NCBI GenBank assembly: GCA_029260215.1
Contig: JAJDDQ010000085.1
Span: 62,001-126,000 of the forward strand
Direction of reading: 5' to 3'
Length of the DNA: 64,000 bases
Source of the DNA: Phycisphaerae bacterium
GTDB lineage: Bacteria > Planctomycetota > Phycisphaerae > UBA1845
A program made the translations under genes and the position numbers. The first letter of the stretch is position 1. Every line of letters starts with the position of its first letter. The notes under the pieces were generated by a model. The model searched no databases and was not told the origin of the DNA. It saw only the letters and a list, made by a program, of their open reading frames with translations. Of the stretch, positions 28,166-57,630 are shown piece after piece.

Positions 28166-29014
28166 TCAACGCGATGGAATGTGGCTCATCGTTTTCTTGT
28201 GCCACGGAGCGCCTTTCATGTTGTTCCACGCCGAGATTTCGTGGCACACGTAGCATTGCTTGATGCTGTCCGGCTTCTTTCCGAGCATCTTCGCACACAT
28301 CGAATTGAACATCGGCATAAAATGGCTGGGAGGCGCCTTGTGACATTGCTTGCAGTCTGTCGAGTTGGATGATGGGTGTATGTATTCCGGTATGTTCCAG
28401 GCGGTGGTGGCGTGACAGTTGGCGCACCCGTCGCCGAAGTAGGCGACGTGAGGATCCTCGTTGCCGTGGCAGGTGACGCAGTTGAGGATCAACTCGTCGC
28501 GCGTGATGCGCTGGTGGGGCAGCGACTCCTCTCCGGTGTGTGCCATCCAGACTTGCAACTGCCGCCGAACCTGTTCGCGTTCACCGGACCGATCGCCGTC
28601 GTTCAGTTGCCGCAGGCCCAGGCGAGACAATGTCGTGTGGTCCATTTCCGTGGGCCGATGTCCGCGCCCCTGATGTTCGAGATGGCACTCGGTACACGTG
28701 TCGACGTTGGCGTGAAATGCCGTCGGTTGGCTCTTGAGTAGCGCGGTGTTGTTCGCGTGACAACTGATGCAATTCTCGGCTTCGACACCGCTGACCGGCG
28801 TGTGGCATGCGGCGCAATTGTCTTCGAGCGAGGCATGCGCGGCGGAAAGCTGCCCGGGGTTCGTCATGCGCTGCCATGTGGCTGGCTGCTTGAAGGCGGA
28901 GTCGGCGGGCGTCAACATCCAGACAACAGCAAAACCGATCAGCCCTGCAATCAGAAGAATGCGGTTCGTTGACCCATTCTTCCTGGTACCGACTTTCTCC
29001 CGGGTATGCCCCAT
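28166..29014 (-). CDS. Membrane-anchored heptaheme cytochrome c
   Basis: The 282-residue protein has a single N-terminal membrane segment (about residues 19-36, ILLIAGLIGFAVVWML) and seven CxxCH heme sites at about 67, 82, 107, 179, 197, 221 and 254, in a periplasmic domain. Extra His residues spaced between the sites (for example HLEHQGRGH and HPSS) suggest bis-His hemes. The two groups of three and four sites resemble tandem cytochrome c3/c7-type modules. Its ATG overlaps the stop codon of the upstream cytochrome b/DUF547 gene by one base (TAATG), so translation is probably coupled. It is the last gene of the four-gene redox operon and the likely periplasmic electron carrier. The partner acceptor is unknown. 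Confidence 0.9.
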   Translation of the reverse strand: MGHTREKVGTRKNGSTNRILLIAGLIGFAVVWMLTPADSAFKQPATWQRMTNPGQLSAAHASLEDNCAACHTPVSGVEAENCISCHANNTALLKSQPTAFHANVDTCTECHLEHQGRGHRPTEMDHTTLSRLGLRQLNDGDRSGEREQVRRQLQVWMAHTGEESLPHQRITRDELILNCVTCHGNEDPHVAYFGDGCANCHATTAWNIPEYIHPSSNSTDCKQCHKAPPSHFMPMFNSMCAKMLGKKPDSIKQCYVCHEISAWNNMKGAPWHKKTMSHIPSR

Positions 29015-30651
29015 TAGTTACCACCATCCGCCAAGGCGATATCGTTCAAACCCCAATCGTGTTCAAAGTATTCAATCTTGATTCTGGTGCGGGCTGCATC
29101 AATCCAGTCTTGAGTATCAGAAGCCACATAACGTTGCAGGAACGTCAACAAAGCGTCATCACTGCCGTCGCCGAACAGTTTTCGATCGGCCTTCCATATC
29201 CACGATATCGTGACGACCTCACGCTGTCGGTCGATGGCCAATCCTTTCTTTGGATTGGTAAGAAGCTTCCGAATCATTTCGTCAAGTTGTTCGTCGATTC
29301 GTGTACCGGAGAAAATGTCGCCGGTGCGGTCGGGGCAACTGACGGCTGCACAACTGACGGCGAACACAATGCGCGGGTCGCCAAACTTCCCGAGCAGAAT
29401 TTCCGTTTCGATTTGGCGCAAGGCGTATCGCGAATCTCCGACCTGAATACCCGGGATGCCCCAGGGGTTGCCGGAACTGATCTTGGAATCGGTGATCGAG
29501 GTGACCGGGTAATTCTCCGCCACGAGTTTCATGGCACCGAGGTTGTAGACGTTGATCCAGAAGGCCTTTTCCCGATCGTCGCCCTCAAGGCGATCCGGTG
29601 TCACCCGCTTCAGTGCCGCCAAAGACCGCTCGAAGTCCGATTCCGGCTGGCCCGCCTCTCGCGCGATTCCAGCATAGTCGAACACTGTGGTCGGTATACC
29701 GTGAATGGCGACCGGTGACCGCCAGTAACGCCGGAACATCCGTCCGAAATAGAGCGAAAAATCATCAACCGCAGCCGCAGACTCAAGCACCTCGGCCTGG
29801 TCATTAGGTGGAAGAAGACGCGACGTGGATGTGTTTTCGTACATTGCGGAGCGATCGTAATAGGATTGGCCGGTTGACGGAAACCATCTCAACCCGAAGT
29901 GGATAGCCGCCCAGACGTGCAGGACCATGAGAACATAGAGGATGCAGGAAATGATGATGTGGAACTTCAGCCATTTGCCGAACCACTTCTTGAACGTCTC
30001 GTGCATCTTGATCGCGTATTCCAGGTCGGCGATCGATTCCGACAGGCGAAGAACACCCGCCGCACCGGCCACCGTGGTGGGCGATGTGCCAGCCGGTTCC
30101 GAGGCGAAGTCAGGAACGAAAAAGCTCGCCGCAATGCGCCCGGCCCACCCTGTGAACGGTTGCAACTGTTGGGCTTGCCGGGGATCATTCGCCATTTCAG
30201 TGGCGGCCTGCTCATAGGACTTTTGAAGTCCGGCCAACATCGCCTTCTTTTCGCGAATTTCCGTGGAAAACTGCTTCATCACATAGAGGCCGACAAAACC
30301 GCTGATTACGACGACGAGGGTCATCGCGGTCAGGGCGATGCCTACCGGGCTTTCAAACTTATGCCCGGTGTGCAGCATTACCAGAATCGGGCCGATGATG
30401 CCGGCGTAGACGTGCCACGCAAGTAACGTCCGCATCGAGACGTACTTGTTCAGCCATTTTTTGAGCCTTTTGATGCGTTTCACGATCAGGTAGGCCAGCG
30501 GCACGAGCATGAGCAGCCCACCGCTTACGCCCAGCACGCCGCCCCACAAGCTGCCGGCGAAACGTGGTGCATGGTGAACGAGAAACCCAAGCCACACAAT
30601 CAGCATCAAGATCGTCAGACCGGTGGCCAGGACGCGCTCCCGCTCTTTCAT
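29014..30651 (-). CDS. Cytochrome b-like membrane domain fused to DUF547
   Basis: This 545-residue fusion has about five membrane helices in residues 8-260. Several His lie in or near them (FLVHHAP, LLAWHVYAG, VMLHTGH, KFHIII, VLHVWAAIHFG), enough for two b hemes, as in ferric reductase or PepSY/cytochrome b561-like proteins. From about residue 330 to the end is a DUF547 domain: FWINVYNLGAMKLVAENYPV, then GIQVGDSRYALRQIE, FAVSCAAVSCP, and near the end KIEYFEHDWGLND. The domain has no settled function as far as I know. Between the two is a soluble helical stretch (about 135-205). GGAGG lies about 9 bases before the ATG; the gene is 4 bases after the reductase stop codon. It likely passes electrons between the reductase and the heptaheme cytochrome (inference). 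Confidence 0.85.
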   Translation of the reverse strand: MKERERVLATGLTILMLIVWLGFLVHHAPRFAGSLWGGVLGVSGGLLMLVPLAYLIVKRIKRLKKWLNKYVSMRTLLAWHVYAGIIGPILVMLHTGHKFESPVGIALTAMTLVVVISGFVGLYVMKQFSTEIREKKAMLAGLQKSYEQAATEMANDPRQAQQLQPFTGWAGRIAASFFVPDFASEPAGTSPTTVAGAAGVLRLSESIADLEYAIKMHETFKKWFGKWLKFHIIISCILYVLMVLHVWAAIHFGLRWFPSTGQSYYDRSAMYENTSTSRLLPPNDQAEVLESAAAVDDFSLYFGRMFRRYWRSPVAIHGIPTTVFDYAGIAREAGQPESDFERSLAALKRVTPDRLEGDDREKAFWINVYNLGAMKLVAENYPVTSITDSKISSGNPWGIPGIQVGDSRYALRQIETEILLGKFGDPRIVFAVSCAAVSCPDRTGDIFSGTRIDEQLDEMIRKLLTNPKKGLAIDRQREVVTISWIWKADRKLFGDGSDDALLTFLQRYVASDTQDWIDAARTRIKIEYFEHDWGLNDIALADGGN

Positions 30652-30655
30652 TGAA

Positions 30656-32746
30656 TCACGCCTCCACCGTCACGTCGCCCGTCGGCTTGGCTTGGCAGGC
30701 CAGTATAATGCCAGCCTCTTTGGCTTCAGGCTCCAAGCCGTCTTCGACTTCCATCGTCACGTTTCCGGAAAGAAGCTTGACCGTGCAGACACCGCACATC
30801 CCGACCCTGCATGAGTTTTCGATATCGACGTCGACCCTTTCGGCTGCTTCGAGAATCGTCTCGTCGGGCAGGAATGGTATCGATTTCCCGGATGTTTGAA
30901 ATGTAGCGGTCGCAGCCGGTGTTTCCGTCGCAGCCGTCTTTTCCGTTGCGGCGGCGCTGACCTTTTCACGCTGTGCGGCCCTCGCCTTGGGCTTCTGTTG
31001 TGAGCCGAAATTCTCGGTGTGGATTTTTTCCGAAGGCACGCCCATCTCGGAGAGCATCTGCTTCGTGCCGTCCATCATGGGCGGTGCCCCGCAAAGGTGT
31101 ATCCACTTCGAAGCGATGTCCGGCACGGCTTTGGCAAGCAGTTCTTTGGTCAGCCGTCCGCGATGGTAGCCGTCGATATCCGCGTCGATCCGGCTCATGG
31201 CGATCACGAGGTGCAGGTTTGGGTGCCGCTCCGCCATGCGATTCAATTCGGACTTGAAAATAAGGTGTTCGGGGTCTCGGCAAGCTACGACGAAGTAGAT
31301 ATCGCCAGGCCAACCCATATCGGTCAGGGCGCGGGTGATGCTCATCATGGGCGTGATGCCGACGCCGCCAGAAATAAGCACAACACCGTCCGCCTCTTTT
31401 CCGGTGAAGATGAATTTCCCGTTGGGGGCTTGAATCTCAAGCATGTCACCTTCCTTGACCGTGTCGTGCAGATAACGCGATCCGGCCCCATGCTCTTCAC
31501 GCTTGACGGTCATCTCGCAATAGTAACCCTGCGTCGGAGAGGATGAGATTGTATAGCTTCGCCGGATCGGTTTTTCACCGGTCGGCATGGTGACAGTGAG
31601 AAACTGCCCGGGGAAATAGCTGAACGGAATGCCGCCACCGTGGCACGCGACGAGCCGGAATGTCTTTACGTCTGCGGTTTCTTTGTAGATTCGGGCGACC
31701 CGCAGCTTGCACAGTTTTTTCTTGACGACACGCAGCAATCCCTGCGAGATGTCGGGGCGGTCCGACGCTCCATCCTCGGTTGCACAATCTACGGCTGATT
31801 CATCGCAACAATCGCCGGCCGCAGCCGCCGGATTCTTTTTGGCTGGTGACGCGGCGGGACCAGAGGATGCGGCCTTTGGCGCGGGTCTTGATGGGGCGGC
31901 AGCGGGCGGTGGCTGCGCCGGTGCGTCCACCGCGGTAAGTCTTTCCAGCAGAGCGGCTGCACGACGCATCCTGGAGTGGTACATCCAAAACGCGGCGGCT
32001 ACGAAAACCGCAAGCAGCGTCATGATGCTGGTGTGGAATGCTGTCATGCCGAAGAGTCGGAATTTCGGCTCGTCATTGGCCAGCGGCAGTAGATTCAGAT
32101 CACGTTGAAACCACTCGAGCGCGGTATTGCGGGGCGCCTTCCCTTCGGCAATGGCCCGGTGCGCTGCAAGGCCCGACTCAAACTGCAACAGGCCTTGCCG
32201 CAGCGTAGCCGTGGCCCGCTCCATCGTGCGAAAATCATCGCTGGGTGCAGCCTCGGCAAGCTCGCCAACGCCTTTCGACAAGAGGGCAGCGCCCTCGATC
32301 ATCCGCTCGTGAGCCTTGCGCTCGAGTTCACCACGTTCTTCCGGCGTCATGTTTGGAAGCGTCATCAGCTCCGGGTAAAGCTCTTCCGGTGCCTGGGATC
32401 GCTTGCCCATGCCACCGCCCATACCCTTTCCCATACCGCCGCCCATGCCTTTGCCCATGCCGCCGCCCTTCCCCTTGCCACCCATACCACCGCCCATCAT
32501 GCCGCCGCCCATGCCTTTGCTTCCACCACTCTCCTGGCTGGATGCGCCGGCCTGGGATGGAGCGTTGCCAGCCGAGGCTTGGCCTGGGTGATGTTTCTTG
32601 TGCTCTTCGGGAGATACCTGTCCGGCGGCAAAATGAGGTAGCCAAGCCAATCCAGCGCATATCGCCAGCAAAACAACCATGCAATCACGGGCGGGCAGGA
32701 AGCGAGACGGCTGAGACGACCCGCATCTGAACAATATCGCTTTCAT
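30656..32746 (-). CDS. Membrane FAD/NAD(P) reductase with 2Fe-2S ferredoxin and Met-rich periplasmic domain
   Basis: The 696-residue chain has, in order: a signal peptide (about 1-42); a His-containing linker (EEHKKHHPG); a Gly/Met/Lys tract (about 77-115, repeats of GMGKGMGG); a helical domain (about 130-215); a membrane helix (about 235-256) followed by MRRAAALLERL, which by the positive-inside rule places the rest in the cytoplasm; an Ala/Pro linker; an FNR-type module with RRSYTISSSP (FAD) and LISGGVGITPMM (NAD(P)); and a plant-type ferredoxin with Cys 646, 651, 654 and 684 (SCRVGMCGVC, ILAC). NqrF of the sodium-pumping NADH reductase also has one membrane helix, but with ferredoxin before FAD; here the order is reversed. 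It is the likely NAD(P)H entry point of the operon. Confidence 0.88.
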   Translation of the reverse strand: MKAILFRCGSSQPSRFLPARDCMVVLLAICAGLAWLPHFAAGQVSPEEHKKHHPGQASAGNAPSQAGASSQESGGSKGMGGGMMGGGMGGKGKGGGMGKGMGGGMGKGMGGGMGKRSQAPEELYPELMTLPNMTPEERGELERKAHERMIEGAALLSKGVGELAEAAPSDDFRTMERATATLRQGLLQFESGLAAHRAIAEGKAPRNTALEWFQRDLNLLPLANDEPKFRLFGMTAFHTSIMTLLAVFVAAAFWMYHSRMRRAAALLERLTAVDAPAQPPPAAAPSRPAPKAASSGPAASPAKKNPAAAAGDCCDESAVDCATEDGASDRPDISQGLLRVVKKKLCKLRVARIYKETADVKTFRLVACHGGGIPFSYFPGQFLTVTMPTGEKPIRRSYTISSSPTQGYYCEMTVKREEHGAGSRYLHDTVKEGDMLEIQAPNGKFIFTGKEADGVVLISGGVGITPMMSITRALTDMGWPGDIYFVVACRDPEHLIFKSELNRMAERHPNLHLVIAMSRIDADIDGYHRGRLTKELLAKAVPDIASKWIHLCGAPPMMDGTKQMLSEMGVPSEKIHTENFGSQQKPKARAAQREKVSAAATEKTAATETPAATATFQTSGKSIPFLPDETILEAAERVDVDIENSCRVGMCGVCTVKLLSGNVTMEVEDGLEPEAKEAGIILACQAKPTGDVTVEA

Positions 32747-32804
32747 GGATCTTGTCTCGTGTTCGTGACCTATTCGGACTCGTCGTTGTCGATTCGATGC
32801 TGCT

Positions 32805-33725
32805 TTATCCGTTTCCGTTCAGTTCCCCTCCGTGTTGGCCAACGAGCTTCTTGCGCTGTTCGTCCGTCAACACCTTGGCTGCTTCGCCAACCGCGCGAAT
32901 GAAAGCGATCCGTTGATCCCCCTGCAACTTAGCGATCTTCCGAACCTGAGCATCGATCTTGGCTATGTCGGGCGTGTCGGAGCTGGTGAGTACCCATAGA
33001 TTCTGCTCGGCCTCTTCGATCTGCCGCGTAAACGTAGCCTGCTTGAGGAGCGATTTCTCCTTGAACTGATTAAGCTTCGTCTCTTGCTCCCTGGGGAGGG
33101 TGATGTGTTCGCCGTGGTCGAGAAAGAAACCCGTCGAACCAATGTGATAGATGTGCGATGCACCGGGAAAGCCGGGCAGCGCGGACGGCATCGCCATGCC
33201 CCCCATCTTGGGCATGCGGCCCATCATCCCCATGCCTTTGCCTCCCATCATGCCCATGCCCATTTTCTTGCCGGACACCATCCCCATCTTCTTGCCCTTA
33301 GCGGACATCATCCCCATGCCCATCTTCTTGCCGGATTTCATCCCCTTCATGCCACCGCTCATACTGTCATTGGCCTTCATCTCTTTCTTCGGGGGCGTTG
33401 TCTGGACGGCAACGGATTGTCGTGCCACGCCCTCCTGTGGTGTTCCGAACATATTATCGCCCCGGACAGCCTGATTCGCTTTGCCCTTACTCATTGAAGA
33501 TTGCGTTTGGCCTTGATGTTTCTCTTTTAGCGCGGCTTCCAGCTTCGTAACCTTGGCCCGCATCGCCGCCAACTCCTCGATCAACGACTTGGGAGCAGCC
33601 GACGATCTACGAGCCTGACTGTTGTTCTGCATCCCATTGTCCCCCGACCATGCCGTCGGCGACTGAACAAGAACGGCAAGACTCACAAGAAAAAATGTAC
33701 CTGTGACGCTTGAAACGTGTTTCAT
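32805..33725 (-). CDS. Met-rich exported protein of the CpxP/Spy (LTxxQ) type
   Basis: The start at 33725 is decided by the ribosome site: GGGAG lies 7 bases before this ATG, but directly against the alternative ATG at 33731. The 306-residue product has a signal peptide (MKHVSSVTGTFFLVSLAVL, cleavage near AWSG), a short coiled coil (about 46-70), and a long Met/Gly/Lys tract (about 122-179, repeats such as KKMGMGMMSAKG). A helical C-terminal domain contains LPREQETKL and LTDEQRKKLV, the motif style of periplasmic metal/stress sensors (CpxP, Spy, CnrX). Met-rich periplasmic tracts elsewhere bind copper(I), so metal sensing or sequestration is a reasonable inference. It is the first gene of the redox operon, and the next gene carries a similar tract. 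Confidence 0.8.
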   Translation of the reverse strand: MKHVSSVTGTFFLVSLAVLVQSPTAWSGDNGMQNNSQARRSSAAPKSLIEELAAMRAKVTKLEAALKEKHQGQTQSSMSKGKANQAVRGDNMFGTPQEGVARQSVAVQTTPPKKEMKANDSMSGGMKGMKSGKKMGMGMMSAKGKKMGMVSGKKMGMGMMGGKGMGMMGRMPKMGGMAMPSALPGFPGASHIYHIGSTGFFLDHGEHITLPREQETKLNQFKEKSLLKQATFTRQIEEAEQNLWVLTSSDTPDIAKIDAQVRKIAKLQGDQRIAFIRAVGEAAKVLTDEQRKKLVGQHGGELNGNG

Positions 33726-46680: not shown

Positions 46681-48741
46681 TCACATGGCGGACGTACGCA
46701 TTTCCATCGGCTGCTTGAGCAACCACAGGCTGAAGACGCTGAAACTGATCATCCCGCCGAGCATGGGCAATTGACTTCGAAACGCCGCCTTCGCAGTCCC
46801 GAAAAGGCGCAGTGATGTCTTTTGCGCAACCCAAAGACTGTACACGTGGCCTACGAGCACGAGCAGAACCTGCACAATCCAGAGATTCTGAAGCGAAATT
46901 AACGGTGGAATCGACCAGCCGGCGGTCCCGAACAGATTCCATCCCCAGCCGAACGGATCAGAGATCATGGTTGCGACCTTGGGGCCTTCCATAAGCAAAT
47001 GCTCAAGATTGTGCGCAATGTGATAGAATAGCGCAATGGGCAACAGTGCGTAAGCATATCGAATGAAGTAGTCGCGATAGGTAAGCGGCTTGAGCGAATG
47101 CCCCTTACCCAACTCACGAGACATAGCCACCAGTACCGCGTAGATCAAAATAGGTCCTAGCATCAGCAGCAGCATGCTCAAGCTGAATCCGACAATCCGA
47201 CCTGCGCCGGCAGCACTGCGGATCGCTTCGACGAACTGTCCCCATATCGCCGTCATGGTCAAGCCGTGAAAACCCGTGATCGCAAGCATCAACAATGCGA
47301 GGTAGGCCTCGTCCGCCCGCGGCTTGCCCTCTGTGACGAGATCGCTGCCCCAAGGCCGAAGGTTGACTGCGAGGTTGTCGTGCGGGCAGGCTTGAATGCA
47401 TTCCATGCACTGGATGCAATAGGTGTTGGACTGAAGCTTCCCCGGGTAGAGGAATGTCGGGCAGCCGTAAGCGGTTTCGCTACCCGTGACGCATTCTTTC
47501 GAGTGACAGTCTTGGCAGACGTTAGCACTCTTGGAGCGCACTTCAGTACTGGCAAACAATGCGTACAGTCCACTCACCCGCCCCACCAGGCAACCGTATC
47601 GGCAGAAGCTTTTCTTATCGAAAAGCAACGCCGACATCACCGCCATGAGAAGCATTGCGATGGCCAAATAGGCGGTCACACGCGGCTTCATGGTAACGCC
47701 GAACCCCAACTCAACCCACGTCAAGCCAACGAAAAGAAAAGTCGCGATTGCGATATTACGAACTATCCGAGGCCACTTCAGTCCCAGAGTCAGGCCGTCG
47801 TCCGACTTCTTCCAGAAACTCAATCGCTCGACCCACCCCGCGATCGCGTCCCACGGGCAGACGTAGCACCACGCTTTCCCCGCGAACATGATGAGAATGA
47901 TCAACATACCCCACCAGACAGTCCAGGTCAGAATCGGAGCAATGTTGAGCGCAGGGTTTTGATTTCCGAACAGTCCGGCTGCGACAACCATGACAAAGAG
48001 TGCCACGACAATCGCCTGGCAGGAAAAGCGAAAAATACGTGAGCAGGCCGCACGCTTCAGGAGGCCGATGGACAGTAAATCGAACCGGTCCGAACATTCG
48101 GTCGCAGCGGTCGCGGTCCAAATGGGCAATGCAATCGCTCCGGCACTCGGGGCAACACCGGTAGCATTCAGCAACCTTTCACCCTCGCCACGGACCGCGT
48201 CGGAGGTGAGTTGCATGGCCTTTGGCTTGGAATCGCTTTCCGTGCCAGGGACTTGTTTCTTCCGCGACGTAATGTCAAAAACACCGAAGCTCACAACGAG
48301 GACAACGGCGATGGAAGCGTAGTACAGCCACGTCGGAATACCCCACATGGTGTGCATAAAAAAGGCCGCAGGGTCCGATTTGAACTTAGCCCGATGCGCC
48401 TCGCTGCACAACGAATACGTCTTGCCAAGGTACGTCGCCGGGATGGAATCCCCCTCAGAAAGCGGCACACTGCAAACGATGCATTGAGCCGACAGATATG
48501 CCAGTGGATCTTCTGTGAAGCTTTTCCGGCAAGAGTCCGTGCAAAAGAAGTACGTCTCATCGTTGTGTGTAGCCGTCAGATCCCACGCCGCATTGACTTC
48601 CATCTTACAGACAACGTCAACGAGCGGGCCGCCGCTCGATTCACGATGATGCTCTGGAGCCCGCTTGAAGTTGGACAGCACCACGGGAACCGCAATACCG
48701 ACCAGCAAGATGTATGGTAAGAGCATGTTCAGGCGTTTCAC
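46681..48741 (-). CDS. NosR/NapH-like membrane polyferredoxin with N-terminal YHS/TRASH domains
   Basis: The 686-residue chain begins with a membrane helix (about 6-23) and two short metal-binding YHS/TRASH-type modules (Cys 45, 67, 71; then 87, 90, 112; motif YFFCTDSCRKSF). A second helix and a basic linker follow. Then comes a NosR/NapH core with several helices, CYVCPWDAIAGW, FCRYGCLVGR, CQDCHSKEC, and CIQCMECIQACPHD, and about four more C-terminal helices. The start may be a GTG at 48741 or an ATG five codons later. YHS/TRASH modules occur with copper or other soft-metal handling; a link to copper delivery is inference. The gene lies between the NapH-like and third NapG-like genes of the operon. 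Confidence 0.85.
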   Translation of the reverse strand: MKRLNMLLPYILLVGIAVPVVLSNFKRAPEHHRESSGGPLVDVVCKMEVNAAWDLTATHNDETYFFCTDSCRKSFTEDPLAYLSAQCIVCSVPLSEGDSIPATYLGKTYSLCSEAHRAKFKSDPAAFFMHTMWGIPTWLYYASIAVVLVVSFGVFDITSRKKQVPGTESDSKPKAMQLTSDAVRGEGERLLNATGVAPSAGAIALPIWTATAATECSDRFDLLSIGLLKRAACSRIFRFSCQAIVVALFVMVVAAGLFGNQNPALNIAPILTWTVWWGMLIILIMFAGKAWCYVCPWDAIAGWVERLSFWKKSDDGLTLGLKWPRIVRNIAIATFLFVGLTWVELGFGVTMKPRVTAYLAIAMLLMAVMSALLFDKKSFCRYGCLVGRVSGLYALFASTEVRSKSANVCQDCHSKECVTGSETAYGCPTFLYPGKLQSNTYCIQCMECIQACPHDNLAVNLRPWGSDLVTEGKPRADEAYLALLMLAITGFHGLTMTAIWGQFVEAIRSAAGAGRIVGFSLSMLLLMLGPILIYAVLVAMSRELGKGHSLKPLTYRDYFIRYAYALLPIALFYHIAHNLEHLLMEGPKVATMISDPFGWGWNLFGTAGWSIPPLISLQNLWIVQVLLVLVGHVYSLWVAQKTSLRLFGTAKAAFRSQLPMLGGMISFSVFSLWLLKQPMEMRTSAM

Positions 48742-48762: not shown

Positions 48763-50283
48763 TCAAGTAGTCACGAGTACAGCGTTCGGGTTGACTGCGT
48801 TCGCACGCCGCCGCGCCTTCTTCTTCTGAACCGCCCGCGCGACAACGAACAACAGAACGAACCCTCCGGCACCAGCCGCAACCACTGAGCCCGTCGCCGT
48901 CGGCTGTCCGGCGATCATCAGAAACGGAATAACCTCCACCCTGCCCTCGACTGGCATTGACAACTCGATGACGTATTCAGCCTCCAACGGAAACGTTACA
49001 TGGAACTTGTACTCGTTGTCGAACGGTTCGCGCGTCATCGCCGGCTGGACAACCGTGTTGTCGCCGAACGTACTGGTTTGAAGAATGCGAACAGTAATCG
49101 GCTGACTGTAGACGCTGCCCGTTTCCCGGTTCTTTATGTAGAATGCGAGGTTGGCGGCCTCGCCCGGGACAGGGCTGCCGGGATAAGACGTCAACAGCAC
49201 ATCGTATGGGCCGGTATGCGCCGGGTATTCGAGTGTCGGACGCTGAGGGTAATTCTCCTTATATGAATAGTGCGGCAGGCCAAGAATGTGGTGCGCGCCT
49301 GCGTTTTCGACCGACACAAACATCGAAAACACCACAACCAGCGCAGCTATTTTCCTGGGCGTCGGTCGATACCCACGCGGTTTGGGAAGACTGATCGTGT
49401 AATACAGCGCTTCATCGGGGCAATGCCGAATGCAGACGCCGCAATTGTCGCATTCGATCGACATGGACTGCGTAATCGGATTGATGCCTTCTTCACAAAC
49501 AGGGATGCAATCCCGGCAGCCGGTGCAACGATCGGCATTCAGACGAATGCGCACCGGACGTATCCACCCAATCAAACCGTAAACAGCCCCGCCCGGGCAC
49601 ATCGTACGACACCACCAGCGCGGCGAGACAAACAATTCAAAGGCGACAATTACGCCCAACACAACAAAAATCCCGACCAGCGACGTACCGAAAACCCATG
49701 CGTGCAGCGCACGGCTGATGACCACCGGCGGGTAAATTAACGCGAAGAGAGGCGCTGAGAACAAAGCCGCCAACGCAAGCCCGACAAAAAGCCCGATGTA
49801 TTTGTTCCGGTGCGAAAAAACGACTTCACCAGGACGAATTTCCGCCAGACGAAGCAGGCGACGCAGCTTGCCGGTCAGTTCAAAGAGCACATACCCCGGG
49901 CAAAGCCAACTGCAAAAAACACGCCCGAACAACAAAGTGATCACGATCGGAATCGCGGCGGACGCAATCAAAGGCCAATGAATGCGTTTCGAGGCGGCAG
50001 CCATCTCGGCGGCGGCAAGCGGGTCGGCAATATCGACGCCCATAAGACGCATCGACCACAGAGTCCCCTTGTTGCCATCGAGAAATGCCTGTGGGTCCGC
50101 CAGCCTGTCAACATACGGGTGAACCATTTTCGTGACAACCTCGCCACGGAGACCGGCCATCAGTTGATCGTCGTCAATCACGCGCGCCGCACGGTAGTGT
50201 GCGTACAAACAAAGCAAAGCCACAGATACGGTAACCAGAAGCACAGACGCTTGAACCAGTCTTCGAACAATCTGCAAAATCAT
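48763..50283 (-). CDS. napH: NapH-like membrane ferredoxin with C-terminal periplasmic domain
   Basis: The ATG at 50283 follows GGAGG by 7 bases and overlaps the stop codon of the preceding NapG-like gene (ATGA). About five helices carry VFCSWLCPGYVLFELTGKL and WWCRTMCPGGAVYG at the membrane face, then two 4Fe-4S motifs, CTGCRDCIPVC and CDNCGVCIRHCPDEA, as in NapH. Residues about 310-480 form an additional beta-rich periplasmic domain (LPHYSYKENYP..., TLEYPAHTGPYDVLLTSYPG), and a final helix ends in KKKARRRAN. The extra domain resembles extracytoplasmic FixH/CopC-like beta folds by general character only. NapH passes quinol electrons toward NapG; here that would be the two NapG-like proteins encoded just upstream. 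Confidence 0.87.
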   Translation of the reverse strand: MILQIVRRLVQASVLLVTVSVALLCLYAHYRAARVIDDDQLMAGLRGEVVTKMVHPYVDRLADPQAFLDGNKGTLWSMRLMGVDIADPLAAAEMAAASKRIHWPLIASAAIPIVITLLFGRVFCSWLCPGYVLFELTGKLRRLLRLAEIRPGEVVFSHRNKYIGLFVGLALAALFSAPLFALIYPPVVISRALHAWVFGTSLVGIFVVLGVIVAFELFVSPRWWCRTMCPGGAVYGLIGWIRPVRIRLNADRCTGCRDCIPVCEEGINPITQSMSIECDNCGVCIRHCPDEALYYTISLPKPRGYRPTPRKIAALVVVFSMFVSVENAGAHHILGLPHYSYKENYPQRPTLEYPAHTGPYDVLLTSYPGSPVPGEAANLAFYIKNRETGSVYSQPITVRILQTSTFGDNTVVQPAMTREPFDNEYKFHVTFPLEAEYVIELSMPVEGRVEVIPFLMIAGQPTATGSVVAAGAGGFVLLFVVARAVQKKKARRRANAVNPNAVLVTT

Positions 50284-51002
50284 GACACTGCCTCCGCAAA
50301 GCGAGGCTTTCGGGTTCGCACGACGCGGATGGCCGGCTCGCCGCGCACAACAGTCCGACAAATTTCTTCGCACATCCCACACCCGACGCAGGGCTCGGTG
50401 TAGACCAGCGGCGCCAAGAACGCACCGGGGGCCAGTTTGATCGCTCGGTTGCGCAACGGGCAAAACATAAAACATTCACCACACGGGCCACGGCGCTCGG
50501 CCAGCGCGTCCGACTCAGTCGGCTCGCGTCCAAGCTGCACCAGAAATTCCTGCTCTTCCCGGATGCGTTTGGCCTTGTAAGACAAGCACAGGTCTTCTCT
50601 CAACTCGACCGAGCCCATATCTACATCGGATATGTCCTCAAACGGCAGCAACGCTCCGGTCGGGCAAGCGGGGCCGCACGCATTGCAGAGTGTGCATGCC
50701 TTGACTGCTGGGTCAACGTATGGCGTGTGATAGTGCGCACCATCCGCTCCGGTGTAAAACTGAATCGCCCCAGGCTCGCAAGCATCCTGACATCGACAGC
50801 AGCGAATACAGGCAGCCAGAAAATCTCGCTCGGGTAACGCTCCGGGCGGCCGAAGAATACCGGCGAGTTTCTGGTAAGGTCGTTTGACTGCCGGATAACT
50901 CGGCAGACGCTTTCGCTGGAGAAAATGCGTGACGCCACCGACAAAAGCGATACCCATCGCCGTGGCGGTGGTGCGAATCATGTCCCGGCGTGTGACGGCC
51001 AT
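50280..51002 (-). CDS. napG: NapG/MauM-type ferredoxin, first copy
   Basis: This 240-residue ferredoxin starts at the ATG at 51002, whose first base is the last base of the preceding stop codon (TGATG). The N-terminus MAVTRRDMIRTTATAMGI is a twin-arginine-type signal. LRPPGALPERDFLAAC leads into four cluster regions: CIRCCRCQDACEPG, CTLCNACGPACPTG, CGECFMFCPLRN and CVGCGMCEEICRT. This is the layout of NapG, which relays electrons at the periplasmic face. Its end overlaps the NapH-like start by 4 bases, so NapG and NapH are made in register. Confidence 0.88.
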   Translation of the reverse strand: MAVTRRDMIRTTATAMGIAFVGGVTHFLQRKRLPSYPAVKRPYQKLAGILRPPGALPERDFLAACIRCCRCQDACEPGAIQFYTGADGAHYHTPYVDPAVKACTLCNACGPACPTGALLPFEDISDVDMGSVELREDLCLSYKAKRIREEQEFLVQLGREPTESDALAERRGPCGECFMFCPLRNRAIKLAPGAFLAPLVYTEPCVGCGMCEEICRTVVRGEPAIRVVRTRKPRFAEAVS

Positions 51003-51941: not shown

Positions 51942-54716
51942 CTAGATGATCTCGATTCGTGTCGCGAGTTTCTTGTAATCACACTGCCCACTTACCGGAT
52001 CCCACGCACGGTGGCTCGCAGCGTTCACCAGCCATTTGTTCTTGCGCGGATCGGCACTGTCTGCCACCGAAAGATTCCACGGGCTAAACAGATACCCCGG
52101 GGGAACTTCTGAGCGAGCGGGACGGATCATACTGGTCTGCCCGACCGACACACGAGCTTCATACGAACCTCGCCGCGTGACCAGTCGCACTCGTTGGCCG
52201 TCCTTTATCCCGAAGCGCTTGGCATCGTCGTCGTTGATTTCGACATACTGTTCGGGGACGAGCTTCTGCGTTGTCGCGCCGCGAATCGTCTTGGCTGTAT
52301 GAAAATGCTCGTACACAACGCCAAGCCCGAGCCAGAACGGATAGACGTCCTGCGCCTTGTGGTCCTTGAGTGACATTTTGCTGTCATTGTAGACGTCCAG
52401 ATGCGGCAACTCAGGCGGAAGCCCCGCGTCACGGGCTTCAACCAGAATGCGCGGTTTGCCCTTGTTAGCCCCATCGGTATGCAGATCGTCAATCAGGAAC
52501 GGGCCTTCACCCGGACGACGCTTGTCTCCGTACTCCATCAATTTCGACGTAATGCGATCGAGATTCGTATAATCCTGCTCGCACAATTTGAATCGCGCCT
52601 TGCCGTCTGCATGACGGAAGTCTCCGTACGGCGTGCCGGCCCAACCCTCCTGGCCTAAATACCTTCGAGGCGTTCCGCCCGCCTTGGCGATCTCGTAAGT
52701 CGGCGCAGGCCACTGAATGCCACGCAGGCTGCGAAGCTGATCGTAAGGTGACACGCCGTCGCGTTTTTCGACTTCGAGTATCCCCGTCAAACCGGCATCG
52801 GAACCTTCACTGGCCTTCAGAATATCGCGAAATATATCTTCAGGATCATAAGCCATCAGACCGTTGCCCATCTTGATCTTCTTCTCGTACGGGAAGACCA
52901 CGTCAGCATCCAAGCCGAGTTTCTCAGCCAGCAGCTTGCCTTTGTCGATGGCCATGTCCATATCAGGCCGACAGTTCGGCGGAGGATTCTTCGTCCCGTC
53001 ACAGATATAGATACGCCGCTCCGATTGAATGTACGTACCGCCGGTCCATTCGCCCCACGTAGCCGCCGGAAAAATCACGTCCGCGTACAGATTGTTGGGC
53101 GCGTGTCGATAGATTTCCTGAATAACAACGAACATACGTGTCAACGCCGGTCGAACGAGTGTTTCCAGATCAGGCATATGCACGTGCGTGGTGTACATCC
53201 AGAACATCGCATCCAGCCCGCCCTGGAGCGCCCGCTCCATCATACCGATGACCATGCCAGGGTTGGGCAAAGCGGTCGTCTGGGTCAGCCGTTCGCGCGG
53301 GACGCGCCAGCAGTCAGCAATGTGATTTCGCCAGGCTTCATTCTTCAGCGGCTGATTAAAAGGCAATCGGCCCGTCAGCCCGCCCATCAGGCGCTCGCTC
53401 ATTGCATTGGGTTGGCCGGTCTGCGAATGACTGCCGCAACCAGGCCGACCCAGATTGCCCGTCAGCAGATGAAGATTGATGATGCTGATCGTATTGTGCT
53501 GCCCGTGGAGCATCTGGTTGTAACCGATACCCCAGAAACTCAGCACGCCGCCCCGGCCTCGCTCTCGACCTTTGATCGACGCTTCCGCCCAGGTGCGAGC
53601 GACGTTCTCAATGGACTCCACAGTCACGCGCCCGTTGTCGATGCGGCGCAATTTCTCAACGACCTGTTCTGGCGAGTAATTCGCCAATACCCCATCGCGA
53701 TATTTCTTCCAGTTGTTCGTGTGCTTCTCAAGCCACGATTCGGGCATGCACGCCTGCGGATATTTTTTCAACAACACGTGGGCAATGGCATTGAGATAAC
53801 TGATATCGCCGTTCAGCGTCGGTATGTGATAGCTGTTGCGCGGATTGATATCCTCAAGCCCGATGACTGTCCCCGTTTTTCGCGGATCAGCCACACACGT
53901 AGGAATATCATGCTTGGCCTTATGGTCCGCCACGCGCCAAAACAAGATCGGATGCGCCTCGCGAGCATTATGACCCCAAAACGTAATGAAGTCTGCCTCT
54001 TCAATATCCTCATAACTCGTCGGCGGCGCATCTGAGCCATAAGAGTGAAAATACCCTGTTACTGCCGACGTCATGCACATACGTGCATTGGCTTCGATCG
54101 AGTTACTCCCGATAACCCCCTTCATCAGAAGATTCTCGATCCACTGAGCCTCCATAGTAAGCTGGCCGGAACCATTAAGACCAACCGCGTTAGGCCCCTT
54201 CTCCCGAATCGTCTCGGCGATACGCTCAGCCACAAGCTCCTCAGCCTCTTCGTAGGTGGCTTCCCGATAGACATCATCGTCGAATCGCCCCTTCGTGCTG
54301 GAAACGTGATTCCGCAACGGGTCGCTCATATCGCGGCGCACCAGCACTTTCGTCAACCGATCGCGATAGATCGGCTCATGCGCATTAAGCCCCTTGATGC
54401 ACTGAATCCCGCGATTCGTCGGGTGCTTCTTGTCCGGCACCATGCCGACCACTTTGTCGTTTTCGACCTTGATCAGCGTGCCGCAACCCACACCGCAATA
54501 CGGGCAGGCCGCCTGCAATAGCTTCATTCCAGTGTCACCACCCGCTGAAAGGTCCGGCGCGGCGTGCGCTTGAACGAATTCGTTCGGCAGCGCAGTCGTC
54601 ATCGCGACAGCCGTACCCGTCCCCGCAGCCATTTTCATGAACTTGCGACGATCAAACCCCTCGCCGTACTTGACGCGACGATGAATCGTATAAGGTGTCA
54701 TATCTTTGTCACTCAT
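51942..54716 (-). CDS. napA: NapA-like periplasmic molybdoenzyme (probable nitrate reductase)
   Basis: This 924-residue member of the DMSO-reductase family has a textbook ribosome site (AAGGAGG, 7 bases). The twin-arginine signal DRRKFMKMAAGTG is at about residues 22-34. One 4Fe-4S cluster is bound by Cys 71, 74, 78 and 106 (CPYCGVGC ... GIQCIKG, with the relay Lys). The molybdenum ligand is Cys 214 in EANARMCMTSAVTGY, in the same frame as NapA ANARHCMASA. FWGHNAREAHPILFWRV, FWGIGYNQ, LHLLTGNLGRPGCG and TGQPNAM parallel NapA; YEHFHTAKTIRG and RFGIKDGQRV are in the C-terminal domain. It is some 90 residues longer than E. coli NapA. Nitrate is the most likely substrate; another oxyanion cannot be excluded. 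NapB, NapC and NapD are absent. It overlaps the cytochrome c gene by 4 bases. Confidence 0.85.
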   Translation of the reverse strand: MSDKDMTPYTIHRRVKYGEGFDRRKFMKMAAGTGTAVAMTTALPNEFVQAHAAPDLSAGGDTGMKLLQAACPYCGVGCGTLIKVENDKVVGMVPDKKHPTNRGIQCIKGLNAHEPIYRDRLTKVLVRRDMSDPLRNHVSSTKGRFDDDVYREATYEEAEELVAERIAETIREKGPNAVGLNGSGQLTMEAQWIENLLMKGVIGSNSIEANARMCMTSAVTGYFHSYGSDAPPTSYEDIEEADFITFWGHNAREAHPILFWRVADHKAKHDIPTCVADPRKTGTVIGLEDINPRNSYHIPTLNGDISYLNAIAHVLLKKYPQACMPESWLEKHTNNWKKYRDGVLANYSPEQVVEKLRRIDNGRVTVESIENVARTWAEASIKGRERGRGGVLSFWGIGYNQMLHGQHNTISIINLHLLTGNLGRPGCGSHSQTGQPNAMSERLMGGLTGRLPFNQPLKNEAWRNHIADCWRVPRERLTQTTALPNPGMVIGMMERALQGGLDAMFWMYTTHVHMPDLETLVRPALTRMFVVIQEIYRHAPNNLYADVIFPAATWGEWTGGTYIQSERRIYICDGTKNPPPNCRPDMDMAIDKGKLLAEKLGLDADVVFPYEKKIKMGNGLMAYDPEDIFRDILKASEGSDAGLTGILEVEKRDGVSPYDQLRSLRGIQWPAPTYEIAKAGGTPRRYLGQEGWAGTPYGDFRHADGKARFKLCEQDYTNLDRITSKLMEYGDKRRPGEGPFLIDDLHTDGANKGKPRILVEARDAGLPPELPHLDVYNDSKMSLKDHKAQDVYPFWLGLGVVYEHFHTAKTIRGATTQKLVPEQYVEINDDDAKRFGIKDGQRVRLVTRRGSYEARVSVGQTSMIRPARSEVPPGYLFSPWNLSVADSADPRKNKWLVNAASHRAWDPVSGQCDYKKLATRIEII

Positions 54717-57622
54717 TGTCCCACCTCCTTGAGTGGTGTTGAGCGAGTCAGGGCCATCGCCCCGTCAGTCGCATCATCTGTCTCAATTGAATTCTTCGGC
54801 TCCAGCGAGCGCTTCGCCGGAATCGTCATGGGAGACGGAGTCTCAGTCGCCCAATGACGCATGTAGGCCACAATGTCATCCACATCCTGCGATGAAAGAT
54901 CGGTCAACCCATGCGCGCCGCGCCCGAACGGACGCATCGCCGTGCCCTTACGACCGCGCACGATCGTCGCCTGCAACATGCCATCCGTCGCCGCGGAAAG
55001 AAATCCTTCATTGCTCAACTCCGGCGCCCACGAACCCCGCCCCTCATCGCCGTGGCAACCGGCACAGTTGGAACGAAACAACTCTCGCCCGTGAGCAAAG
55101 TCCCAGGGAATGACGAACCGATGGGGAATCTGCTGCAGCCGATCCGGTCCGAACGGCGAATCATGCTCCCACGATCGCAGGAACGCGACCACATCGTTCA
55201 CTTCGTCGCTCGACAGACTGAGAATCGACTGCGGACCGCGCTTCACAGGGCGCATCTCCGTCCCCTGCCGACCCAACGCCATCGTCGCCATCAAAAAACC
55301 GTCCGAAGCGAATCGCAGGAAATCAGGATTGGAAAGCGCAGGACCGCTCGCACCCTCACCCCGCTCACCGTGACAGCCTACGCAACTCGTCGCATAGACC
55401 GCCGCACCTCTTATGGGCTGCCCATTCGGTGACTTCGCAACACGCACGATCTCACCCGGGCCGGCCCGTTCAAGCAAACGCAGATAAGCGATAACATCTT
55501 CAATCTGCCGATCAGACAGCTCGGTAATTCCCTGCCCGCCCTTGCGGAAACCGCGCATCGCCGTGCCTTCCTTGCCGTAAGTAATCCAATGACGCAGCAT
55601 GGCATCCGACGCCGAACCAAGAAAAACAGCATTATTCAATTGAGGCCCGGTCGCACCCTCCGCATCAACCCCGTGACAACCGGAACAGTGTCCCGTGAAC
55701 AACTGCCGCCCCGCGTCCCAATCGCCGTGCAGCACAGTCTGAGCATGCCATTCCGGTGACTTCGACGGCTTCTTCTGCCATGTCCGAAGGTATTGAACAA
55801 TCGAAGCAATGTCTGCATTGCGAAGGTGCTGCCAACCCGGCATACCTGTTCCAGGTCGCCCCTCGATCATCGTTTTGATCAGAAACTCGTCCGGCACTGC
55901 CGTGAGAAACGCTTGCGTATTGAGCGAAGGCCCCAAGTCGCCCGAACCGTCAGCCCCGTGGCACATGGTACAGTTCGCATTGTACAGAGTCGCACCGATG
56001 TCTGCCGACACGTTCGCCGATTCCTCCGCAGAGCAAAGAGCAAGAGCACCGTCAATATCCCCCCGGCGCGACTGCCACGTACGCAAGTGAGCCAACAGAT
56101 CACTGATCTCCTGAGAATCAAACTCTCGCCAAGAAGGCATAGCCGTGTTGGCACGACCGTGAATAATCGTATCGCGAAGGAACGCATCCGAAGCCACAGC
56201 CAAGAACGTCGGCGAATTCAACGACACACCAATGCCGCCCTCGCCTTCCACACCATGACACGCCGCACAATTTGCCCGATACAACGCAGCCCCAACGCGC
56301 GCCTCCCCCCGAGCCGCACTCACAGCATCCCCGTCCGGCGCGGCAGCGTCCCAACTGCGAATGAAATTCACCAGCAGTGTGATCTCATCCTCCGCAAGTC
56401 CCCCTTCGTTCGCCCAACCAAGCATCTTCGTACCAGGTCGGCCGGATGTGATAATCCGTCGCAGAAAATCATCGCTCAAAACCGCCAGCGCATCCGCGTG
56501 ATGCAAAGACGGCACCACAACCTCAATATCACTACGGCGCTCGACAACGACATCCACCCGGTCCCAATCGTGGCCCCACGGGTCCGCACCCGTAGGCCAA
56601 AGACCTTCGCGCATTGTCGTCCCGTAACCCTCCGGACCGTGACACGCGGAGCAGAACATCGCGAAAAGCGTCTCACCCCGAACAGGGTCACCCTCACCAA
56701 AACGAGGCTGAGGAATATGACTCGCCGGCGCGGACTTGCGCTTCAAACTCATCATGTACAATGCCAAATCCCGCGCTTCCGCATCGCTCAGATCAACCTC
56801 CGGCATCAACGTGCCGGGCGATACCTCCTTCGGATACTTGAAATGCTCGAACAGCCACTGCTCAACAGTGTGCTCGCCCTGCACACGCGTAAAATCGAAC
56901 GCATGCTTGCCCTTGTCGCCCACGTACGTCAAATCAGGCCCAAGCGTCCCGCCTCGCCCGCGATACTTATGGCAGCCCAGACATCCCAACTCGGTCACCA
57001 GTTTCTTCCCGCGTGCCAAACGATCCGCACCGGGCAGCGACTGCGCCAACGACGCCTGATCAATCCTCCCGCCAGATTCACCGGCAAATAAATCCGACTG
57101 ACCTCCGTAAAGATCATTCTCCGCGTGACAGCGGCCGCAGCTCGTATAAATAGCCGTTCCGCGCAACATAGGAGTGTCAATATGTGGCACTGCACTCCCA
57201 TCGGATCGCCACCCGTGCGCCAAATCCTTGTGCGTGCCGCGACCCTGCCCCTGATGGCAAACCGTGCATCCGAACGTGTCCGGTTGATGCCAAGTAAGCC
57301 ACTGTCCCGGATGCTTCGTCAACGGCTGAGGCTCGGAGGCCATCGCCGGATTCTCAACACCCAGATGGCAAGTCGTGCAACGCTCGATTGCAGACAACTC
57401 CGACAGATACAACTGTTTCAGATTGATATGAAACGAAGCGGCCGATAGACGCGCCGCGTCCGTCTCAGCAGTCTTCAACAGAAGATCACGATACCGGTGC
57501 TGATAGCCCCGCCACTCACCGCGAAAGTTCTCCTGGTACGCAGCCATGCACAGCACAGCCAGACAGGCCAGTGAACTGACCAGAAGAACCATCTTCATAA
57601 TTCGAACTTGTCGATGATCCAT
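54713..57622 (-). CDS. Ten-heme cytochrome c with repeated class I domains
   Basis: The ATG at 57622 precedes an N-terminal membrane anchor (about 8-27). Ten CxxCH sites lie at about residues 82, 119, 162, 214, 324, 452, 551, 646, 747 and 853. The first three are closely set without a clear Met ligand. From the fourth on, each heme has its own cytochrome c class I module of about 100 residues with a downstream Met: TLMPEV (273), GTKMLGW (400), NTAMPSW (495), GTGMPGW (594), GTAMRGF (689), GTEMRPV (790) and GTAMRPF (896). The last six modules are clearly related tandem copies. The gene lies between cytochrome b and the molybdoenzyme, overlapping the latter by 4 bases, so it probably takes the place of cytochrome c1/f and carries electrons to the molybdoenzyme (inference). 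Confidence 0.9.
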   Translation of the reverse strand: MDHRQVRIMKMVLLVSSLACLAVLCMAAYQENFRGEWRGYQHRYRDLLLKTAETDAARLSAASFHINLKQLYLSELSAIERCTTCHLGVENPAMASEPQPLTKHPGQWLTWHQPDTFGCTVCHQGQGRGTHKDLAHGWRSDGSAVPHIDTPMLRGTAIYTSCGRCHAENDLYGGQSDLFAGESGGRIDQASLAQSLPGADRLARGKKLVTELGCLGCHKYRGRGGTLGPDLTYVGDKGKHAFDFTRVQGEHTVEQWLFEHFKYPKEVSPGTLMPEVDLSDAEARDLALYMMSLKRKSAPASHIPQPRFGEGDPVRGETLFAMFCSACHGPEGYGTTMREGLWPTGADPWGHDWDRVDVVVERRSDIEVVVPSLHHADALAVLSDDFLRRIITSGRPGTKMLGWANEGGLAEDEITLLVNFIRSWDAAAPDGDAVSAARGEARVGAALYRANCAACHGVEGEGGIGVSLNSPTFLAVASDAFLRDTIIHGRANTAMPSWREFDSQEISDLLAHLRTWQSRRGDIDGALALCSAEESANVSADIGATLYNANCTMCHGADGSGDLGPSLNTQAFLTAVPDEFLIKTMIEGRPGTGMPGWQHLRNADIASIVQYLRTWQKKPSKSPEWHAQTVLHGDWDAGRQLFTGHCSGCHGVDAEGATGPQLNNAVFLGSASDAMLRHWITYGKEGTAMRGFRKGGQGITELSDRQIEDVIAYLRLLERAGPGEIVRVAKSPNGQPIRGAAVYATSCVGCHGERGEGASGPALSNPDFLRFASDGFLMATMALGRQGTEMRPVKRGPQSILSLSSDEVNDVVAFLRSWEHDSPFGPDRLQQIPHRFVIPWDFAHGRELFRSNCAGCHGDEGRGSWAPELSNEGFLSAATDGMLQATIVRGRKGTAMRPFGRGAHGLTDLSSQDVDDIVAYMRHWATETPSPMTIPAKRSLEPKNSIETDDATDGAMALTRSTPLKEVGQ

Positions 57623-57630
57623 CGTCTTAC

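Follow-up and report, generated by a model that had tools for sequence, protein, structure and literature searches.

A stretch of 64,000 nucleotides from the 4.97 Mb Planctomycetota-type genome of a Phycisphaerae bacterium (G000), here termed the window, contains a compact cassette of four genes encoding a secreted methionine-rich protein, a membrane-anchored reductase, a cytochrome b and a heptaheme cytochrome c. Based on gene content and order, cofactor motifs, conservation and a copper-related genomic neighbourhood, we propose that the cassette may serve in copper resistance as a conduit that exports electrons across the membrane, an assignment to which we give an even chance of being correct. 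In this process, the cytoplasmic FAD domain of the reductase would oxidize NAD(P)H and pass electrons to a tethered 2Fe-2S domain, from where they would proceed to the inner and subsequently to the outer of two b hemes held by transmembrane helices (TM) 3 and 5 of the cytochrome b. Having crossed the membrane, they would be transferred from the outer b heme to the seven c hemes of the membrane-anchored periplasmic cytochrome and finally to a periplasmic acceptor, for which we hypothesize Cu(II) to be the likeliest candidate. On the periplasmic side, copper would be bound or sensed by the Met/His-rich part of the reductase and by the CpxP-like, Met-rich protein. The likeliest end use of the system would be the reduction of periplasmic Cu(II), or of another soft metal, to yield Cu(I), for which storage or export is available through RND pumps and through proteins that are Met-rich or form four-helix bundles. 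Copper proteins of the two latter types have a preference for Cu(I).

The four genes are all located on the minus strand (Table 1) with spacings of 58, 4 and -1 bases, and their types, Pfam domains, CXXCH count and methionine content agree with a preliminary description of the locus. Compared to the closest relative, ratios of nonsynonymous to synonymous substitution rates amount to 0.20 for gene 1, 0.11 for gene 2, 0.12 and 0.13 for the cytochrome b and DUF547 parts of gene 3 and 0.09 for gene 4, which implies that all parts of the cassette are real and under purifying selection. Scans for sigma-70 promoters and terminators returned matches at chance level. The product of gene 1, for which an alternative ATG at position 33725 is a possible start, matches the Metal_resist family (E-value 4.9e-8, 33.6 bits compared to a Pfam cut-off of 29.2), which assigns it to CpxP/Spy/CnrX-like proteins. 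Methionine accounts for 8.8% of its residues, compared to a mean of 2.75% (standard deviation 0.75, maximum 3.9%) in 18 other coding sequences of the window, and its aligned relatives are Met-rich as well. Gene 2 displays the organization of FNR/2Fe-2S reductases of the PaaE/HCR/GbcB type, with FAD_binding_6 and NAD_binding_1 domains and a C-terminal Fer2 domain, whose C-x4-C-x2-C motif is conserved in the alignment. Since the protein scores below every NCBIfam equivalog cut-off, no named function can be ascribed to it within this type. Its N-terminal domain contains 6.7–10% methionine in the 8 complete sequences measured, and this Met-rich periplasmic domain is retained in most relatives. In Roseomonas, the reductase is divided over two annotated genes.

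The membrane part of gene 3 does not have any match in Pfam. In an alignment of 34 cytochrome b sequences, which share 36–83% identity with the window protein, His 26, His 80, His 94, His 97, His 231 and His 245 are invariant. These include two pairs, each 14 residues apart, on the predicted transmembrane helices TM3 and TM5, in line with the spacing of about 13–14 residues in two helices of the FRD family (PF01794, Ferric_reduct). Such an arrangement would be anticipated if two b hemes were stacked as in NOX/Fre-type proteins. The PF01794 score of the window protein (13.4 bits) is below the curated cut-off of 28, and matches at E≤1 were obtained for 15 of the 34 relatives, with a best E-value of 0.0012. 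When compared by hhalign, the cytochrome b profile aligns to FRD with a score of 27.1 (P 0.0019), placing the TM3 histidine pair on the FRD histidines, compared to values of at most 16.1 in 20 shuffles and of 19.2 for the cytochrome b561 family, a likeness that is suggestive, not decisive. Foldseek searches with two AlphaFold2 models (mean pLDDT 73) did not yield any match in the PDB at E≤0.001; SpNOX reaches only rank 10, with an E-value of 4.0, for the full-length model. Profile searches of the PDB with the cytochrome b and heptaheme alignments returned nothing useful, and NCBIfam matches of the cytochrome b to membrane parts of glycosyltransferases, SLATT and similar families were judged as chance. 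We consider the protein FRD-like by its anatomy, with formal membership in the FRD superfamily not established.

Gene 4 shows the characteristics of multiheme c7/c3-like proteins, with matches to Cytochrome_C7 (27.1 bits, cut-off 24.8) and Cytochrom_c3_2 (27.2 bits, cut-off 25), and hydropathy predicts its N-terminus to serve as membrane anchor. Basic residues are found following the transmembrane helix of gene 2 and between TM2 and TM3 of gene 3, and by the positive-inside rule they place the FAD, NAD(P)H and 2Fe-2S part of the reductase in the cytoplasm. Conversely, a periplasmic location is predicted for the C-terminus of gene 3, which comprises DUF547, for the Met-rich parts and for the gene 4 hemes. 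We thus infer a topology, electron path and direction that support the flow from cytoplasmic NAD(P)H to periplasmic hemes suggested in the preliminary description; a reductase with its NAD(P)H module facing the periplasm, which would have contradicted it, is not predicted.

Table 1. Features of the four-gene cassette, with positions referring to the window.
Feature	Position	Strand	Basis
Gene 1, secreted Met-rich CpxP/Spy-like (Metal_resist) protein, 308 aa	32805..33731	-	Pfam
Gene 1, Met-rich stretch in which MGMGMM-type motifs recur, putative binding site of Cu(I) or soft metals	33186..33386	-	Sequence
Gene 1, CpxP/Spy-like helical core	32850..33110	-	Pfam match, residues 208-294
Gene 2, membrane-anchored reductase, 696 aa, N-terminal signal/anchor	30656..32746	-	Pfam, alignment
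Gene 2, periplasmic EEHxxHH and Gly/Met-rich stretch	32402..32608	-	Sequence
Gene 2, transmembrane helix followed by basic residues (SRMRR)	31988..32044	-	Hydropathy, alignment
Gene 2, FAD- and NAD(P)H-binding domains	31061..31699	-	Pfam FAD_binding_6, NAD_binding_1; RRSYTI motif
Gene 2, 2Fe-2S ferredoxin domain	30680..30895	-	Pfam Fer2 9.7e-16; cluster cysteines invariant
Gene 3, fusion of 5-TM cytochrome b and DUF547, 545 aa	29014..30651	-	Pfam, alignment
Gene 3, cytochrome b part, a stand-alone protein of ~230-260 aa in most relatives	29866..30651	-	Alignments
Gene 3, TM3; H80 and H94 are invariant, 14 residues apart and putative axial ligands of two b hemes	30370..30414	-	34 sequences
Gene 3, TM5 with invariant H231 and H245 (14 apart), putative partner heme ligands	29917..29961	-	34 sequences
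Gene 3, DUF547, predicted periplasmic, lineage-specific add-on	29032..29682	-	Pfam PF04784 2.4e-16
Gene 4, inner-membrane-anchored heptaheme cytochrome c, 282 aa	28166..29014	-	Pfam, alignment, hydropathy
Gene 4, seven CXXCH heme sites	28241..28816	-	Invariant in 14 aligned sequences

The cassette, initially described as being without obvious counterpart, is widespread and mobile. With gene 4 as query, one scan covering 85,000 species genomes identified 11 loci, and the order reductase, cytochrome b, heptaheme cytochrome is kept in all 8 close relatives with sufficiently long contigs, which belong to Planctomycetota, Verrucomicrobiota (Prosthecobacter) and a metagenome-assembled genome labelled Deltaproteobacteria. 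In total, this core order is retained in 34 other loci containing all three genes, distributed over Planctomycetota, Verrucomicrobiota, Bacteroidota and Proteobacteria, with a 35th locus (L039) running off its contig. The core genes were never found apart in the identified relatives and, in the loci checked, they usually overlap or are separated by few bases, with some of the overlaps being exaggerated by mechanically assigned starts of the open reading frames. Within Planctomycetota, the close family has a scattered distribution, with members in 6 of 294 genomes, and its abundance outside of this phylum is based on one genome scan and a plasmid collection. In the latter, cytochrome b and heptaheme cytochrome each match 52 of 72,556 records at 57 places, with the 52 accessions being identical for both, and 26 of these records are typed as conjugative. 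Carriers include Sphingobium, Rhizorhabdus, Variovorax, Alteromonas, Glaciecola, Legionella, Methylophaga, Methylocystis, Acetobacter, Bradyrhizobium BTAi1, Spirosoma and Pontibacter. On the BTAi1 plasmid pBBta01 (L086, L103), we find several copies of the cassette, with one short reductase residing next to an IS3 element, and in another locus (L006:1038-1487) an open reading frame of 149 residues resembling outer-membrane efflux proteins is located between cytochrome b and heptaheme cytochrome.

The linkage of the genes implied by the preliminary description is supported by this three-gene core, and a separation of the genes in most relatives, which would have contradicted it, was not observed. 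Gene 1 adjoins the core in about 12 loci, and the DUF547 fusion is lineage-specific. It is the immediate upstream neighbour of the reductase in the window as well as in L036, L037, L078, L079, L080, L085, L087, L093, L102 and L105. In BTAi1 (L103), a distance of 0.4 kb separates it from the second copy of the reductase downstream, and in L040–L042 and L077 it is found 1.7–4.5 kb upstream. An intact DUF547 is fused to the cytochrome b only in the window, L036, L038, L039 and L043. In L037 (7648-9866), the fused DUF547 is degenerate and the reductase lacks its FAD/NAD domain and retains the 2Fe-2S domain. Since most relatives do not contain DUF547, it was rejected as a general component of the mechanism. 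The fusion offers a first functional setting for the study of this domain, as periplasmic add-on of an electron-transfer protein.

The link to a metal, which had initially been left unspecified, is supported by gene neighbourhoods and points to copper. In 14 of 20 plasmid loci, copper or heavy-metal genes are located within 10 kb of the cassette, including multicopper oxidases, CopB, Cu/heavy-metal P-type ATPases, a four-helix-bundle copper-binding protein, DUF411 and heavy-metal-responsive regulators, and in the Alteromonas locus CopC/CopD are found at a distance of about 12 kb. Such genes are absent in all four control stretches of 40 kb (160 kb in total) from four of the same plasmids, which corresponds to an enrichment with a p-value of 0.002 in a Fisher test of partly non-independent loci against a small control. 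In Planctomycetota, CPC-type P1B ATPases, several of them with a YHS domain, reside near the cassette in L036, L038, L043, L079 and L080. A second group of neighbours could supply NAD(P)H, namely, in the window, a malic enzyme encoded 374 bases upstream of gene 1, glutamate dehydrogenase upstream of the reductase in six Planctomycetota loci (L038, L040–L043, L077), and zwf/gnd/tal or the alcohol dehydrogenase adhP near several plasmid cassettes.

Several observations weigh against a role in copper resistance. Six of the 20 plasmid loci do not contain an annotated copper gene within 10 kb, no classical copper-resistance gene adjoins the cassette in the window and a search for a CueR-type box did not identify any. 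Many of the same islands carry the multicopper oxidase CopA, which catalyses the opposite reaction from Cu(I) to Cu(II). With respect to the supply of reductant, zwf/gnd are also present in one control stretch, rendering the link to the pentose-phosphate pathway non-specific. Finally, in Alteromonas and Glaciecola the cassette opens the operon of the HynSL NiFe-hydrogenase, a context suggesting that at least some copies may use a partner other than copper. We only tentatively put forward the narrower proposal, which we consider possible and less probable than electron export in copper resistance at large, that the cassette would be a dedicated, horizontally mobile and so far unrecognized NAD(P)H-driven periplasmic copper reductase, a bacterial three-protein counterpart of Fre and STEAP with a heptaheme end, in the copper islands of several phyla. 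If true, a large class of plasmid genes annotated as '2Fe-2S protein', 'hypothetical protein' and 'cytochrome c3 family protein' would turn out to form one defined module, linking the reductant of the cell to the handling of metals in the periplasm.

The hydrogenase context could also reflect a general NAD(P)H:periplasmic cytochrome c oxidoreductase, whose heptaheme protein would feed any c-type partner such as a hydrogenase, a monoheme cytochrome c, a terminal oxidase or a peroxidase. As part of the same explanation, the system might bypass copper-sensitive complexes or dispose of surplus reductant without reducing a metal. Monoheme cytochrome c genes near several cassettes are consistent with such a role, as are a Rieske protein and a cytochrome b-cytochrome c fusion encoded 0.3 kb upstream of the four-gene operon of the closest relative (L036:2794-4991). 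In the same direction point Orf1 and Cyt of the HynSL operon of Alteromonas macleodii, which by gene order correspond to the cytochrome b and heptaheme protein of the cassette family and which are dispensable for hydrogenase activity in E. coli (PMC3102683) and therefore not maturation factors. However, no single partner enzyme recurs and copper genes recur far more often, and most relatives have preserved the Met-rich periplasmic domain of the reductase, leaving this explanation rather unlikely.

We regard it as improbable that electrons would flow inward, with H2 via HynSL or other low-potential periplasmic donors feeding the heptaheme protein to reduce NAD(P)+. FNR-type flavoproteins are reversible in principle and a hydrogenase is encoded nearby in Alteromonas and Glaciecola, but in most contexts a low-potential periplasmic donor is missing, Cu(I) is unable to drive the reduction of NAD+ and the enzymes encoded in the vicinity produce rather than consume NAD(P)H. 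The extracellular electron-transfer route contemplated in the preliminary description, to which a multiheme cytochrome supplied from the inner membrane would be suited, was rejected as highly improbable because an outer-membrane partner is lacking, with no match to the MtrB/PioB porin (PF11854) of MtrAB/PioAB conduits in the genome and no gene of an outer-membrane cytochrome conduit annotated beside the plasmid cassettes, and with gene 4 carrying an N-terminal membrane anchor. Very little probability is also left for the heptaheme protein and cytochrome b acting as copper or redox sensor that signals via the CpxP/CnrX-like first gene without bulk electron flow, since most loci preserve the full path from NAD(P)H to heme and the core is not repeatedly accompanied by a dedicated kinase or anti-sigma partner.

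Elsewhere in the window, the minus strand encodes a NapH-like membrane ferredoxin (46681-48741) whose N-terminal region contains two metal-binding motifs of YHS/TRASH-like type, and a second NapH-like protein is found at 48763-50475. An overlapping cluster on the minus strand (51942-59244) contains a NapA-like molybdopterin oxidoreductase, a bc-type cytochrome b and a 977-residue protein whose tandem cytochrome c domains hold about ten CXXCH motifs.

A full-text search of the literature did not retrieve a description of the cassette, which could exist in papers beyond these texts, and the only mention retrieved concerns two of its genes, under the names "orf1" and "cyt", in the Alteromonas hydrogenase operon. 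Each part of the system is of a known kind; their combination, its mobility and the link to copper appear unreported. The Pco/Cop/Cus copper-resistance islands that are frequent neighbours of the cassette classically comprise oxidases, pumps and binding proteins, and to our knowledge no multiheme wire driven by NAD(P)H has been described as one of their components. In MsrPQ (YedYZ), an FRD-type inner-membrane heme b protein supplies a periplasmic reductase from cellular reductant. Unlike in the cassette, a heptaheme cytochrome is missing and the end enzyme is a molybdoenzyme. A trio of genes in Planctomycetota, found in a larger set of loci than the cassette, encodes an FAD/4Fe-4S reductase, a related 5-TM cytochrome b of the same signature and a cytochrome c with 9–20 hemes (11–20 in L053–L070). 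It shares the cytochrome b superfamily and the three-part logic with the cassette and differs in its thioredoxin-reductase-like 4Fe-4S NAD(P)H module and larger cytochromes. This trio is widespread and seems to represent a broader class, so far without a name, of conduits from NAD(P)H to multiheme cytochromes. Found beside differing reductases and cytochromes, the cytochrome b thus looks like a common membrane adaptor between NAD(P)H modules and multiheme cytochromes. In a gammaproteobacterial metagenome-assembled genome (L045:8336-17161), a distant cytochrome b relative is followed by cytochromes with 21, 41 and 27 CXXCH motifs. Among bacterial membrane systems, CcoG of Rhodobacter capsulatus reduces Cu(II) with two 4Fe-4S clusters and a donor that is not known, and neither hemes nor an FNR module are described for it in the same study (PMC7558416). 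NAD(P)H-driven reduction of Cu(II) across the membrane is carried out by the eukaryotic heme reductases Fre and STEAP (PMC7558416). With the NOX, Fre and STEAP ferric and cupric reductases of the FRD superfamily (PF01794), the cassette would share the use of cytoplasmic NAD(P)H and FAD, two b hemes coordinated by histidines of two transmembrane helices and a one-electron reduction on the outer side, whereas it differs in its separate reductase, which contains a 2Fe-2S cluster and a Met-rich periplasmic domain, and in the predicted onward transfer of electrons to a heptaheme cytochrome c.

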